Below are positions 8 through 5,389 of a DNA stretch of 5,389 bases, piece by piece. Source of the stretch: Candidatus Omnitrophota bacterium (GTDB lineage Bacteria > Omnitrophota > Gorgyraeia > JACOVV01); NCBI GenBank assembly GCA_016177145.1, contig JACOVV010000093.1, positions 1 to 5,389 on the forward strand. The letters run 5' to 3'. Each line of letters starts with the position of its first letter. Position 1 is the first letter of the stretch. The position numbers were made by a program, and so were the translations under genes. The notes under the pieces are model-generated. The model was not told where the DNA came from. It did no database searches and saw nothing but the letters and a program-made list of their open reading frames with translations.

Positions 8-33
8 CCCTCTCCCCCTAAAGGGGGAGAGGG
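8..33. repeat. C/G-rich hairpin repeat downstream of nrfA
   Basis: CCCTCTCCCCC (8-18) pairs exactly with 23-33 around a TAAA loop. It lies about 97 nt beyond the nrfA stop. CCCTAACCCTCTCCC-type sequences occur as dispersed intergenic repeats in many genomes. It has no T-run on the minus strand, so it is a poor intrinsic terminator but could protect the 3' end of the message. The rest of 1-129 shows no gene. Confidence 0.65.
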
Positions 34-1958: not shown

Positions 1959-3047
1959 TTATACAACTTCTCTTTGCGGTTGGTACACACAAGAAGGGTC
2001 TTCCGCTAAAATATCCTGCGTTTGCGCCCAAGAGCGGGCGCGGCATCCCCCGCAGATCGTCCGGTAGGAACAAACACCGCATTTTCCTTCCAGGAGCGAT
2101 GGATCGCGGAGCTGTTTTAGCACAAGCGATTCCTGCCAGATTTCATCAAATGGCGTTTCTTTGACATTGCCGACCTTTGTCGGTAGATAGCCACAGGGAA
2201 AGACATCGCCCAATGAAGAGACAAAACCGATACCAGTGCCGGCAAGACACCCTTTGGTCCAGCGGTGCATTGAAGGGACCGGTTCTCTTTTTTCCGTAGT
2301 CTCTTTGGTAGAAAAAAGAGAACCGGTCCCTATTTTCCGTTTCTGCAACAGAATCCTGAAGAACTGCGGCGCGCAGGTCGGTTTCGCGATGACTCCATCG
2401 GCGTCTCCCTGCCGGTAAATCCACTCCAGCGCCTCCTCAATCTCCTGCGCCGAGAGAAATTGTTCCGGCCTCATTCCAAGCCCACACCCCACCGGAATCA
2501 CGACAAAAAAATGAATCGCGTCGGCTTCCATCCTCAGCGCCATCTGGTAAAGCTGGGAAAGCTGATGGAGATTGTTCTTTGAGATCGTCGTGTTGACCTG
2601 TAAGCTGAGGCCGTTCTTCTGTAAATATTTCCAGCCGCGCAGAGCTGATCGAAACGCCCCCTTTTGCCCACGAAATGAATCATGAGTTTTCGAATCGGTC
2701 CCGTCAAAGCTGATGGAAACTCTCTTAATGGGTGAATCAGCAATCCGCCGAGCCATTGTTTGATCAATGCTGGTGCCGTTAGTCGCCAGCGCCGTCTGCA
2801 TCCCAAGCCGGCTGGCGTGGTCAACTAATTCAAACAAGTCTTTTCGCATCGTCGGTTCGCCGCCGCTAAAAACAATGATCGGCTTGGCGATTTTGGAGAC
2901 GTCCTCCAGAAATCGTTTCCCTTGCTCGGTGGTCATTTCTCCAGGCAAAGGTTGATCTACTTCATCCAGGCGTCGGCAATGCTGACAGCGGAGGTTACAA
3001 GCGGCGGTGATTTCCCAAAACAATAAATGGAGTGAGGGCTGATTCAT
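1959..3047 (-). CDS. Radical SAM/SPASM protein, NirJ/AhbC/AhbD haem-biosynthesis family (most AhbD-like)
   Basis: Likely acts on a tetrapyrrole side chain; AhbD decarboxylates Fe-coproporphyrin III to haem b in the sirohaem-dependent pathway, and NirJ acts in haem d1 synthesis. The 362-aa cytoplasmic protein has the radical SAM cluster motif CNLRCQHC (Cys17, Cys21, Cys24) and GGEPT (62-66, SAM binding). KPTCAPQF carries Cys225, and the C-terminal SPASM/twitch region has Cys267, Cys285, Cys323, Cys326, Cys332, Cys335 and Cys353 (CGVCSYRTICGGCRARSWA). This C-terminus and TCAPQF are characteristic of the family; choosing between AhbC, AhbD and NirJ needs a profile search. There is no NirS here to need haem d1, and NrfHA needs nine haems, so haem supply is the better inference. 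I chose the ATG at 3047 because it overlaps the upstream stop as ATGA; a TTG at 3059 would add four residues but has no better ribosome site. Residues 239-258 are encoded by an in-frame palindromic element between the TCAPQF motif and the GCLAG segment. Confidence 0.85.
   Translation of the reverse strand: MNQPSLHLLFWEITAACNLRCQHCRRLDEVDQPLPGEMTTEQGKRFLEDVSKIAKPIIVFSGGEPTMRKDLFELVDHASRLGMQTALATNGTSIDQTMARRIADSPIKRVSISFDGTDSKTHDSFRGQKGAFRSALRGWKYLQKNGLSLQVNTTISKNNLHQLSQLYQMALRMEADAIHFFVVIPVGCGLGMRPEQFLSAQEIEEALEWIYRQGDADGVIAKPTCAPQFFRILLQKRKIGTGSLFSTKETTEKREPVPSMHRWTKGCLAGTGIGFVSSLGDVFPCGYLPTKVGNVKETPFDEIWQESLVLKQLRDPSLLEGKCGVCSYRTICGGCRARSWAQTQDILAEDPSCVYQPQREVV
2274..2331. repeat. 58-nt palindromic element with 21-bp perfect arms inside the radical SAM gene
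   Basis: Arms 2274-2294 and 2311-2331 are exact reverse complements (each includes GGGACCGGTTCTC or its complement plus a run of six T or A), around a 16-nt loop. The element encodes residues 239-258 of the radical SAM protein without breaking the frame. No other copy is in the window. A stem this long and perfect in coding DNA is very unlikely by chance. Confidence 0.85.
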
Positions 3048-3442
3048 CGAAAAGGACAAATGTTAGGGGCGATAATTTTTCCGTTGCCGCAGAGTCCTTC
3101 GACTCCAAGGCAATTAGTGACACCGCAAGGACGGATTTCAATGACTCGCAGGAGATCCATGGCTGAAACCACAAATGGGGCTTCGAGCATCTCCTGAGGA
3201 GGTCCGTCTTTGACAACCACCGCGCTCTCCGCTTCCCCTTTTTTCAACGCTTCCAACATGACCATGAGAATGGGCCGCTGTTCCAAACTGACGGAAGGAT
3301 GCGTCTCCACGAAAACACCGACTAAATCCAAATGGTTCTTCTGACAGTAGTCCTGGATCGCCCCCTCCTGGCACTCCCGCCAGTGCTGGCGCACTGACTG
3401 GCGAGCATGTTCTAACCCTTTGACATAACCAAAAACCCGCAT
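3044..3442 (-). CDS. Small protein resembling a catalytically degenerate serine-recombinase N-terminal domain, with Cys-rich tail
   Basis: Function unknown. Residues 1-80 follow the layout of resolvase/invertase catalytic domains: an opening MRVFGYV strand, a helix with AIQDYCQKNHLDLVGVFVE (28-46), then SLEQRP (52-57), MLEALKKGEAE (62-72) and the strand SAVVVK (73-78). The residues that catalyse DNA cleavage are not there. The usual YVRVS is YVKGL, so the nucleophilic Ser and following Arg are missing, and the usual KLDRLSR after the last strand is KDGPPQE. No DNA-binding helix-turn-helix follows. Residues 91-132 instead form a tail with Cys106, Cys111, Cys118 and Cys129, spaced as a metal site might be; I do not recognise this part. 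AAGGAG (3449-3454) lies 6 nt before the ATG. The stop overlaps the ATG of the radical SAM gene as ATGA, so the two are likely coupled and may work together. A regulator, scaffold or metal chaperone is possible; recombination activity is unlikely. The homology claim comes from reading the pattern and needs a profile search. Confidence 0.6.
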   Translation of the reverse strand: MRVFGYVKGLEHARQSVRQHWRECQEGAIQDYCQKNHLDLVGVFVETHPSVSLEQRPILMVMLEALKKGEAESAVVVKDGPPQEMLEAPFVVSAMDLLRVIEIRPCGVTNCLGVEGLCGNGKIIAPNICPFR

Positions 3443-3539: not shown

Positions 3540-4238
3540 TTATTCCTCTTTCAGCACCAGGGTCACTGGTTCAGCGGCTCCCTCGCTTACTACCAGCGGC
3601 TGGCGTTTGGCGCCCAGCCATTCCTGCCAGATTTCTAATTCATAGTTGCCTGGCGGCACCCCTTCCAGCGCGAAATTCCCGTCCGCATCCGTCAACGTCG
3701 CGTGAGCTGAATCCGTCACGATAATGTAGGCGCTCATCCAGGTATGCCCCGCGTCGCATCGTAACCTAATGATTCCCGGCTGATCCAATTTCTTAGTCAC
3801 TTCCATGCCGGGGATCGGCACCGCGATGTTAAACGCGGTGGAGCCGTCTTCAAAGAAGCCATGAGCGTTGTGCAATACCGAGTCACTGCTGGTGATCGCC
3901 AGAGTCGAGCCGTCCGGAACCACCTGGACATGCGGGACAAACTCGCAATTAAGCTGATCGAGCGTCCCTTTTTTAGGCGTAGGGGCGAACGGCCGTTCGC
4001 CCCTACCTTCATCTCCAATGATGGTTACCACGGCGTTAGTAACCCCCTGATCGGCGCCCAAAAGAATCTTTGGAGTTTGTTTATGAGTACCGCAGGTGGA
4101 GATATCGCTTTTGACCTCGATGGTCTCCACCGCCGGCGGCGTTCCTTCAAAAATCACCCGGCCTTTGATGGTTTGAGCGTAACTCGAATTAGCGAAAATC
4201 ACTGCCAGAAACAGCACCGAAAAAAATTTCCTTCCCAT
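3540..4238 (-). CDS. Exported cupredoxin-like protein with CarboxypepD_reg-like C-terminal domain
   Basis: Probably a periplasmic blue-copper electron carrier, plausibly serving NirK; the partnership is inferred from position. The 232-aa form has a signal peptide (1-21, cleavage after SYA before QT). A cupredoxin-like domain follows, with candidate T1 ligands His123 (LHNAH), Cys161, His165 and Met168 (CDAGHTWM). The features CG at 49-50, LDQLNCEFVPHV (93-104) and WMSAYIIV (167-174) are typical of the 'plastocyanin/carboxypeptidase regulatory-like' proteins often seen near multihaem and nitrogen-cycle genes. A beta-sandwich tail (about 180-230; DADGNFALEGVPPGNYEL) looks like CarboxypepD_reg. 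A longer start at 4256 gives an ATGA overlap with nirK but places MRREIT before the signal peptide. I prefer the ATG at 4238 because AGGAGG lies 9 nt upstream and the signal peptide then begins normally. Residues 78-87 (GRGERPFAPT) are encoded by a palindromic repeat and probably are not ancestral. Copper binding is likely; a purely structural role is possible. Confidence 0.8.
   Translation of the reverse strand: MGRKFFSVLFLAVIFANSSYAQTIKGRVIFEGTPPAVETIEVKSDISTCGTHKQTPKILLGADQGVTNAVVTIIGDEGRGERPFAPTPKKGTLDQLNCEFVPHVQVVPDGSTLAITSSDSVLHNAHGFFEDGSTAFNIAVPIPGMEVTKKLDQPGIIRLRCDAGHTWMSAYIIVTDSAHATLTDADGNFALEGVPPGNYELEIWQEWLGAKRQPLVVSEGAAEPVTLVLKEE
3979..4006. repeat. 28-nt perfect palindrome inside the cupredoxin gene (copy 1)
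   Basis: The half GTAGGGGCGAACGG is followed at once by its exact reverse complement, with no loop. It lies in frame and encodes most of GRGERPFAPT (residues 78-87). Because it is a palindrome, both strands give the same three frames; two are open (VGANGRSPL and RGERPFAPT) and one has a stop. A second copy begins at 5373. Similar GTAGGGGCGA palindromes are known as dispersed repeats in several bacterial groups. Confidence 0.85.
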
Positions 4239-4247
4239 TGTTATTTC

Positions 4248-4253
4248 CCTCCT
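4248..4253 (-). promoter_or_regulatory. Ribosome-binding site deciding the cupredoxin start
   Basis: AGGAGG begins on the last base of the nirK stop codon and lies 9 nt before the ATG at 4238. It favours that ATG over the one at 4256, which overlaps the nirK stop. Ribosomes finishing nirK would cover or open this site, which implies translational coupling. Confidence 0.75.
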
Positions 4254-5278
4254 CATTTTTCTGTCTCGTTCACTGAAATTCTCTTTAAAACTTCAGGATT
4301 CTCCGGTCCTTCCACATGAAGAATGCCAACGGCCCCTTTATTGATCCGGAAGATACTGTGATCCACCAGCGTGAAATCTCCAGGCACTTCTACTTTAAAC
4401 TCAACAACGGCCACTCCTCCAGCAGGGACTAAAGTTGTCTGGACGTTGGTCAACGGCGCCGATGTCAGCGATCCCTCCTGGTAAACGCGATCAAATATTT
4501 CCCCAATCACGTGGAAAGAAGAAATCAGGTTCGGCCCGATGTTCCCCACATAGAGCCGGACAGTCTCATTGGTTTGCGCTGAAAGCGCCCCTTCTCCCAT
4601 CAAAGCTCCAACCTTGCCGTTAAAAACGACATAAGTGGGCCGTTCCTCCATTCCTTTCTGAGAAGAAAAAGGAACCAGCCCCTTGGTTCCGGCCGCCCCT
4701 TCTGTGTAAAACTCGCTCTGCATGACATAATATTCCCGATCCGCTTTGGAGAGCCCTTCTTTGGGTTCGACCAGAACCAAACCGTAAAGCCCATTAGCGA
4801 TGTGGACGGGAATTGGCGGCGCCGCGCAGTGATACACAAAGAGTCCGGGGTTAATCGCTTTTGCCTGCACAACCGTTTCCTTTCCCGGCTCCGTCAGCAA
4901 AAGGCAGGCCGCCCCGCAAGGGCCGGTCATCGCGTGAAAATCAATCGTGTGGGTATTCTTGGCGTCCTGGGCATTCTTGAAATGAAACTCGACGGTGTCC
5001 CCTTCCCTGATCCGGATAAACGGCCCCGGCACATGGCCGTTATAACCCCAAAATTCATACTCGACCCCTTTGGATAATTCTCCTTTATACTCTTGAGATT
5101 CCAGCCGCACGATGACTCTGGCAGGATAATCCCTAGCGACCGGCGGCGGGACATTCGGAGCGAAGGTTAACTCCGCCTCGATGACCGGCAGTTCTTTTGT
5201 CTGGGCCCCCAGCGGCATCATCCACGCACCCCACAAGCAGAATAAAATTCCATACTGGAAAATTTGTTTTATCATCAT
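4253..5278 (-). CDS. nirK: Copper-containing nitrite reductase (NO-forming), AniA-like
   Basis: Reduces nitrite to nitric oxide in the periplasm; known NirKs are trimers with a type 1 (T1) electron-entry copper and a type 2 (T2) catalytic copper. The 341-aa protein has two cupredoxin domains behind a Sec signal peptide (hydrophobic 9-23, likely cleavage after PLGA, residue 25). Visible ligands are T1 His110, Cys151 and His159, and T2 His115, His150 and His307. The catalytic pair Asp113 (IDFH) and His256 (SSFHVIGEIFD) is present. HIANGLYGLVLVEPKEGL closely matches the Neisseria AniA type, except that the T1 axial Met is Leu164 (codon CTT at 4787-4789). Cys121 and Cys125 (GPCGAAC) lie in a loop that is Gly-rich in AniA. 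An AGGAGG precedes two adjacent ATGs (5278 and 5275); either could be the start. The stop overlaps the ATG at 4256 as ATGA, and the next gene's ribosome site lies across it, so the two are probably cotranslated. Identity is secure; the electronic effect of Leu164 is inferred. Confidence 0.95.
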   Translation of the reverse strand: MMIKQIFQYGILFCLWGAWMMPLGAQTKELPVIEAELTFAPNVPPPVARDYPARVIVRLESQEYKGELSKGVEYEFWGYNGHVPGPFIRIREGDTVEFHFKNAQDAKNTHTIDFHAMTGPCGAACLLLTEPGKETVVQAKAINPGLFVYHCAAPPIPVHIANGLYGLVLVEPKEGLSKADREYYVMQSEFYTEGAAGTKGLVPFSSQKGMEERPTYVVFNGKVGALMGEGALSAQTNETVRLYVGNIGPNLISSFHVIGEIFDRVYQEGSLTSAPLTNVQTTLVPAGGVAVVEFKVEVPGDFTLVDHSIFRINKGAVGILHVEGPENPEVLKRISVNETEK

Positions 5279-5372: not shown

Positions 5373-5389
5373 GTAGGGGCGAACGGCCG
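5373..5389. repeat. Partial second copy of the GTAGGGGCGAACGG palindrome, cut by the window edge
   Basis: Seventeen nucleotides identical to the first 17 of the palindrome at 3979-4006, running to the end of the window. It starts 2 nt beyond the FNR-like dyad of the nirK promoter. The rest of the element is presumably just outside. Confidence 0.75.

Follow-up and report, generated by a model that had tools for sequence, protein, structure and literature searches.

The palindromic element at 2274-2331 is very likely a copy of a dispersed repeat that lies in frame in an AhbD-like radical SAM gene, where it was probably placed by a transposase acting in trans. Its predicted product in the protein is a disordered loop that joins the radical SAM core to the SPASM domain. 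The in-frame dispersed palindrome itself is real and well supported, and the possible fast turnover of such elements at fixed protein sites merits follow-up. Intragenic REPs have already been published (PMC3733652, in the parts of that paper available here); the new part is the differences in the AhbD spacer among five relatives, together with the concerted arm differences in the DnaX linker. The window analysed is one whole contig of 5389 bp (C16) of the MAG G000, which comprises 1.23 Mb in 237 contigs and is 60% complete. The features of the window are collected in Table 1.

Table 1. Repeat elements and their host genes in the 5389-bp window.
Feature	Position	Strand	Details
Palindromic element, 58 nt	2274-2331	.	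Arms 2274-2294 and 2311-2331, loop 2295-2310
Radical SAM/SPASM protein, AhbD-like, 366 aa	1959-3059	-	Host of the 2274-2331 element; Radical_SAM and SPASM domains
GTAG-tagged REP, second palindrome, GTAGGGGCGAACGG/CCGTTCGCCCCTAC	3979-4006	.	14-bp arms, no loop, in frame in ORF2
ORF2, protein with carboxypeptidase-regulatory-like domain	3540-4256	-	Host gene of the GTAG REP
GTAG REP fragment, 17 bases	5373-5389	.	Contig end, outside long ORFs
Third repeat family, CCCTCTCCC..GGGAGAGGG palindrome	8-33	.	Outside ORFs in the window

The arms of the 58-nt element are 100% complementary over 21 bp and enclose a loop of 16 nt, and the host frame stays open across them, just as the sequence-only reading had described. 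The encoded peptide, GTGSLFSTKETTEKREPVP, is read as GTGSLFS in the first arm and EKREPVP in the second, whereas the alternative frames of the first arm would give GPVLFF or RDRFSFF. It corresponds to residues 243-262 of the 366-aa protein numbered from its TTG start, and to residues 239-258, the numbering given earlier, when counted from an ATG four codons later. That the 58-nt core is not a multiple of three was also correct; no target duplication was seen at the element. Folded as single-stranded DNA, the element reached -23 kcal/mol against a mean of -6.67 kcal/mol for shuffled sequences (0 of 200 shuffles equal), and the gene-strand RNA reached -36.3 against -14.3 kcal/mol for shuffles (z = -7.7, no shuffle equal). 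The element begins with AGGGACC and thus lacks a GTAG tag, and a search of the window against Rfam returned no family at gathering scores.

The host protein had its best match, among the profiles listed, to TIGR04545 (heme b synthase) at 388.2 bits; since this is below the curated cut-off of 500, the protein is named AhbD-like only. A structure model built from the window protein with 68 of 119 listed relatives had a mean pLDDT of 84, with residues 250-265 below 50, and PqqE was its best PDB match. The low-confidence residues were interpreted as a disordered loop linking the radical SAM core to SPASM, the location that had been proposed for the element.

Searches of G000 with the arm pattern, allowing up to 3 mismatches, revealed that the arm recurs; the reversed control gave 0 matches in the genome. 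Full palindromes of this type were found at three sites, and all three lie in frame inside ORFs of this 60% complete genome. Besides the AhbD-like gene on C16, these are the linker of a DnaX-like ORF on C121 (peptide GTGSVFSQQQPREKTEPVP) and, as a related palindrome, an ORF on C144 in which the element precedes a DUF309 domain (peptide DGSIFSKILKNEKNRTVP). In all three, GGTTCT of the first arm is read as Gly-Ser. Several single arms were also present in other ORFs of the genome, and those at C106, C118, C127 and C230 may be decayed copies. With a shorter 17-base pattern, 18 matches were forward and 9 reverse, but the control pattern already had 8 of each; from that search, use was restricted to matches that had no more than 2 mismatches or that formed a pair of arms. 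Pattern-free counting in a 112-kb sample of G000 (20 of the 237 contigs, the window's contig excluded) yielded 6 palindromes with arms of at least 11 bp and loops of at most 30 nt, compared with 1 in the shuffled sample. With its three full palindromes and its single arms, the 2274-2331 type is a multi-copy, hairpin-forming repeat of G000, as is expected of the REP/TIR type.

Two further, unrelated families in G000 share the in-frame habit, and both have copies in the window. The GTAG REP occupies 10 sites, of which 5 are in frame (ORF2 on C16, GatB, a SAM hydroxide adenosyltransferase, a NuoL-like and an LplA-like protein), 1 is in frame with a stop codon inside the element and 4 are outside ORFs; each of these 4 is at a contig end or no more than about 50 bases away from one, and the end of the window is among them. 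The CCCTCTCCC family occupies 9 sites, 4 in frame (dihydroorotate dehydrogenase, squalene-hopene cyclase, a cytochrome c assembly protein and a DUF4912 ORF) and 5 counted as outside, including a copy on C223 in a 96-aa open frame taken as spurious and one on C210 that touches the ends of both flanking ORFs. Together, the three families account for 22 sites, of which 12 are in frame in ORFs, 1 is in frame with a stop and 9 are outside; "in ORF" here means an open frame, so that frame-breaking copies inside genes could be counted as outside. With 4 GTAG and 5 CCCTCTCCC copies outside long ORFs, the claim that every repeat of the genome sits in genes was dropped, and contig breaks at repeats may conceal further intergenic copies.

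Family profiles or homologues cover both sides of the element in 8 of the 12 ORFs (AhbD, ORF2, GatB, SAM_HAT, LplA, PyrD, the cyclase and DnaX), and the Pfam domain match itself contains the element in GatB, LplA, dihydroorotate dehydrogenase and squalene-hopene cyclase. The in-gene status of the NuoL-like, DUF309, DUF4912 and cytochrome c assembly ORFs is less certain, as the element there precedes the domain matches. In ORF2, the GTAG REP encodes RGERPFAPT, a net gain of 6 residues that is absent from 9 of 9 aligned relatives, the closest of which is 83% identical; in the ORF2 structure model, which used 59 of 119 listed relatives, the insert is located in residues 81-90, the least confident block (pLDDT 63). 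The in-frame GTAG element with a stop codon lies on C93 (L117) between two pieces of one reading frame, the second of which has a D-alanyl-D-alanine carboxypeptidase domain match. Another GTAG family, GTAGGGGCGGG..CCCGCCCCTAC, contributed 5 palindromes to the 112-kb sample (L235, L244, L246; C45, C105, C117), one copy being inside a 661-codon open frame.

This recurrence in frame, across three families, leads us to class the 2274-2331 element as an intragenic REP/TIR-type palindrome, comparable to but not established as a Rickettsia palindromic element (RPE). The sequence-only reading had drawn the RPE comparison for a comparable, unrelated element. In-frame placement in a protein gene is indeed shared with RPEs, the two being compared by description rather than by sequence; the presumed class-level kin of the element, however, are mostly intergenic REP/TIR-type repeats, and the element does not stand alone, with at least three repeat families in frame in the genome, the other two of which are also represented in the window.

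The spacer of the AhbD-like protein was compared in an alignment of 15 of the 119 listed relatives. The five closest, P0002-P0006, are 71.4-90.5% identical to the window protein outside the spacer (87.1-90.5% for P0002-P0004), and their spacers, known as protein only, all differ from one another and from that of the window between two conserved blocks; none of the five has the 20 residues encoded by the element. The P0005 spacer, KKDPGSFLGGVGNGKKEPGSF, is compatible with a palindrome stem of 23 bp (0 of 1000 shuffles equal) and is apparently another palindrome of the 2274-2331 type; its stem score of 24.5, like the 23.3 of the window, exceeds the maximum of 18.0 in 113 outgroup spacers. For the remaining four the stem test was weak or not significant, with 14 (P0002), 47 (P0003), 57 (P0004) and 634 (P0006) of 1000 shuffles equal. 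The long P0004 spacer resembles, by eye, translations of the CCCTCTCCC copies of G000, from which we infer that it derives from that repeat; the long spacer of P0002 may be a CAGAG-type repeat, that of P0003, GTVP only, could be a fused stem base, and REPSP of P0006 could be one arm. The different peptides at this spot were thus probably also left by such repeats.

In G000, repeats of the P0005 type gave 3 single-arm matches with 2 mismatches, inside ORFs, against 1 for the reversed control, and repeats of the P0002 type gave 0 matches against 1 for the control, neither of which lends support. A tree calculated free of the spacer did not group the spacers by type, with 3 of the 4 nodes within the group supported at only 40-66. 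The sister genome, the only other one in the order, contained no AhbD orthologue at E 1e-40. AhbD-type spacers range from 15 to 70 residues (parsed in 119 of the 120 listed proteins, the window's included) and vary also where they hold no palindrome. The element was therefore taken to occupy a variable spacer and not to be a clean insertion into conserved sequence; the earlier description of an in-frame element in a variable stretch stood.

A second site was followed in the DnaX linker, with an alignment of 8 listed relatives in which the linkers of P0242-P0247 are represented by protein only. Outside the linker, P0242 is 96.4% identical to P0243 and 97.2% to P0244, while the linkers read GTGSFFS..KKEPVP in P0242 and DGSDF..KKSEPSL in P0243 and P0244. 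The stems compatible with these three linkers measure 21, 19 and 21 bp, equalled by 0, 0 and 3 of 1000 shuffles. Back-translation gives a GGGACCGG-type palindrome for P0242 and a GGGACGG-type palindrome, with different inner arms, for P0243 and P0244. DnaX proteins that are 96-97% identical would hence imply palindromes whose arms differ in concert. For P0245, P0246 and P0247 the stem test was not significant (479, 212 and 139 of 1000 shuffles equal), and their linkers seem to keep remnants.

DNA was available for the linker of the sister genome G001, which is 81% identical to G000 over 900 coding bases upstream. It has kept AGAAAAAGTAGAACCG of the second (3') arm, with the 5' arm and the loop absent and the frame kept. 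The retained arm and the linkers of the relatives make it likely that an element was in the DnaX linker before the species split; since then, both arms have likely changed together or been replaced in some species, to judge from the proteins. DnaX was the sole match when 16 G000 proteins were compared with a 137-kb sample of G001. Other palindromes lie in open frames of G001 (L211, L214), including GGTAGGGGC..GCCCCTACC in a 405-codon frame.

At the level of the class, an inverted pair of the shorter core GGGAC(C/G)GTTCT was found in 45 of 384 genomes, with up to 83 copies in one. The core of the window element, GGGACCGGTTCT, is one base longer, and kinship with the class palindrome is to that extent presumed; the exact longer core occurred as an inverted pair in 3 stretches of a genome-contig collection that may exclude the window's own genome, in MAGs named Omnitrophota, Blautia and Proteobacteria. 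Within 60 regions of six genomes, 75 of 91 class copies were intergenic, 11 inside ORFs and 5 partly so, against 84% of random positions inside ORFs; the class palindrome thus behaves as an extragenic repeat in those genomes. The first position inside the core is Watson-Crick paired in 78 of the 91 copies (60 A-T, 10 C-G, 8 G-C) and not in the other 13, and in 174 of 182 flanks the base before GGGAC is G. In G376, a Y1 transposase gene has a palindrome on either side, at distances of 105 and 181 bases from the domain match of the gene; the second palindrome overlaps the end of the transposase ORF. No Y1 transposase was found in the 60% complete G000, and across the class the occurrence of the transposase did not follow that of the palindrome (present in 35 of the 45 genomes with the palindrome and in 297 of all 384).

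Comparison with known systems was based on the available portions of the respective papers. Short palindromes of dispersed families, the GTAG- and CGTC-tagged REPs, lie in ORFs of known proteins (Di Nocera and co-workers 2013, PMC3733652). The second palindrome of the window starts and ends as a GTAG REP, whereas the 2274-2331 element carries neither tag, and in G000 the intragenic habit is shared by three families. In the same account, recB of two Xanthomonas species has different REPs at about one site; here, re-occupation of a site is suggested among relatives that are about 90% identical. TIRtrons, inverted repeats other than GTAG REPs, are there linked to Y1-type transposases and have the TIR motif GGGGWSAS. 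The outer bases of the class copies, GGGGACGG, fit this motif at 7 of 8 positions, short of the full motif, and two copies flank a Y1 transposase gene in G376; AGGGACCG of the window fits at only 6 of 8, has one C/G more in its core, with A preceding GGGAC, and comes from a genome in which, at 60% completeness, the transposase was not found.

Rickettsia palindromic elements are likewise palindromic insertions in the genes of several unrelated proteins; they belong to another host lineage, and RPE-1 is said to be longer than the G000 repeats. In that source RPE-4 and RPE-6 are filed under intragenic repeats, and proteins with an N-terminal RPE-1 are reported as expressed (PMC3733652). Nematomorph mitochondrial genes keep perfect inverted repeats inside translated genes, with both arms coding for conserved protein (PMC6649704), unlike the AhbD peptide, which is an added, variable loop. 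Judged by title and the start of the abstract, the literature matches listed held no description of the 2274-2331 repeat or of palindromes in Omnitrophota; sequences given in figures would be missed by this search.

A palindrome could also arise without a mobile element, if the polymerase copied an ordinary coding arm inversely by local template switching, which has been described as a maker and keeper of hairpins (PMC8794818, as far as available). The lone 3' arm in the G001 DnaX, which looks as if the 5' arm were a later copy, and the concerted arm differences among near-identical DnaX proteins would fit such an origin. Template switching alone, however, does not spread one sequence over many loci, and the same arm is present in unrelated genes, with close variants in 45 of the 384 class genomes at up to 83 copies, mostly intergenic in the six genomes examined; as the origin of the element we consider it improbable. 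It is likely, instead, to be the mechanism that keeps the arms paired.

Less probable still is a function at the RNA level: the hairpin would then serve as a pause or regulatory element, or the ribosome would bypass it during translation and leave out the peptide. Translational bypass elements occur in yeast mitochondria. The RNA hairpin of -36.3 kcal/mol is very stable, and the in-frame stop inside one element would be harmless if skipped. Openness in the gene frame, by contrast, is not needed in a skipped element, yet 12 of the 13 in-ORF elements have it, although openness also defined those 12 as in-ORF; a sequence-specific function is made less likely by the repeats, apparently unrelated, that share the AhbD site, and the window has no Rfam match. 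That the stretch is an ordinary variable spacer, palindromic by chance, would accord with the 15-70 residues spanned by AhbD spacers and is nevertheless extremely unlikely, given that 0 of 200 shuffles fold equally well, that the arm occurs elsewhere in the genome while the reversed control has 0 matches, that 0 of 113 outgroup spacers reach the stem score of the window, and that the full palindrome has already been seen in other genes.

For the preferred reading, a dispersed repeat copy in frame in a translated gene, we propose the following course. Repeats of the REP/TIR type would jump, probably mobilised by an IS200-like (Y1) transposase. Copies landing in genes would persist only if they leave the frame open and their peptide comes to lie in a tolerant loop or linker, a pattern displayed by the copies described above and presumably due to selection. 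An occupied site would then turn over quickly, decaying through loss of one arm or being overwritten by other families, and re-insertion, or template switching across the hairpin, may alter both arms at once, as suggested largely by protein sequences.

The palindrome in frame and the differing inserts of the relatives mean that repeats may be rewriting protein loops. Taken further, the AhbD spacer and the DnaX linker might be recurrent landing pads at which unrelated families alternate and paired-arm change creates new loop peptides, free of stops, at a higher rate than the flanking protein evolves. Mobile hairpins and template switching would then be a continual supply of new protein sequence to the lineage; this wider proposal is tentative, and we would sooner doubt than adopt it. 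"Extragenic" palindromes can in any case sit in frame in many proteins of a barely studied lineage, including the core enzymes GatB, DnaX and dihydroorotate dehydrogenase, and relatives with different inserts at one site offer a direct test of coding-palindrome origin, arm perfection, replacement and loop tolerance.

The assembly seems to have broken at repeats, as each end of the contig (1-33 and 5373-5389) coincides with or adjoins a repeat palindrome. The AhbD-like gene has NrfA/NrfH-like cytochrome genes on one side and a copper nitrite reductase gene (TIGR02376 above cut-off) on the other, at 130-1945 and 4253-5278, placing two different nitrite reductases near each other in a likely Omnitrophota genome. 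An ORF of 132 aa at 3044-3442, with a weak match to a resolvase N-terminal domain, shares 16 bases with the beginning of the AhbD-like gene if the latter is read from its TTG start, and 4 bases if it is read from the later ATG.
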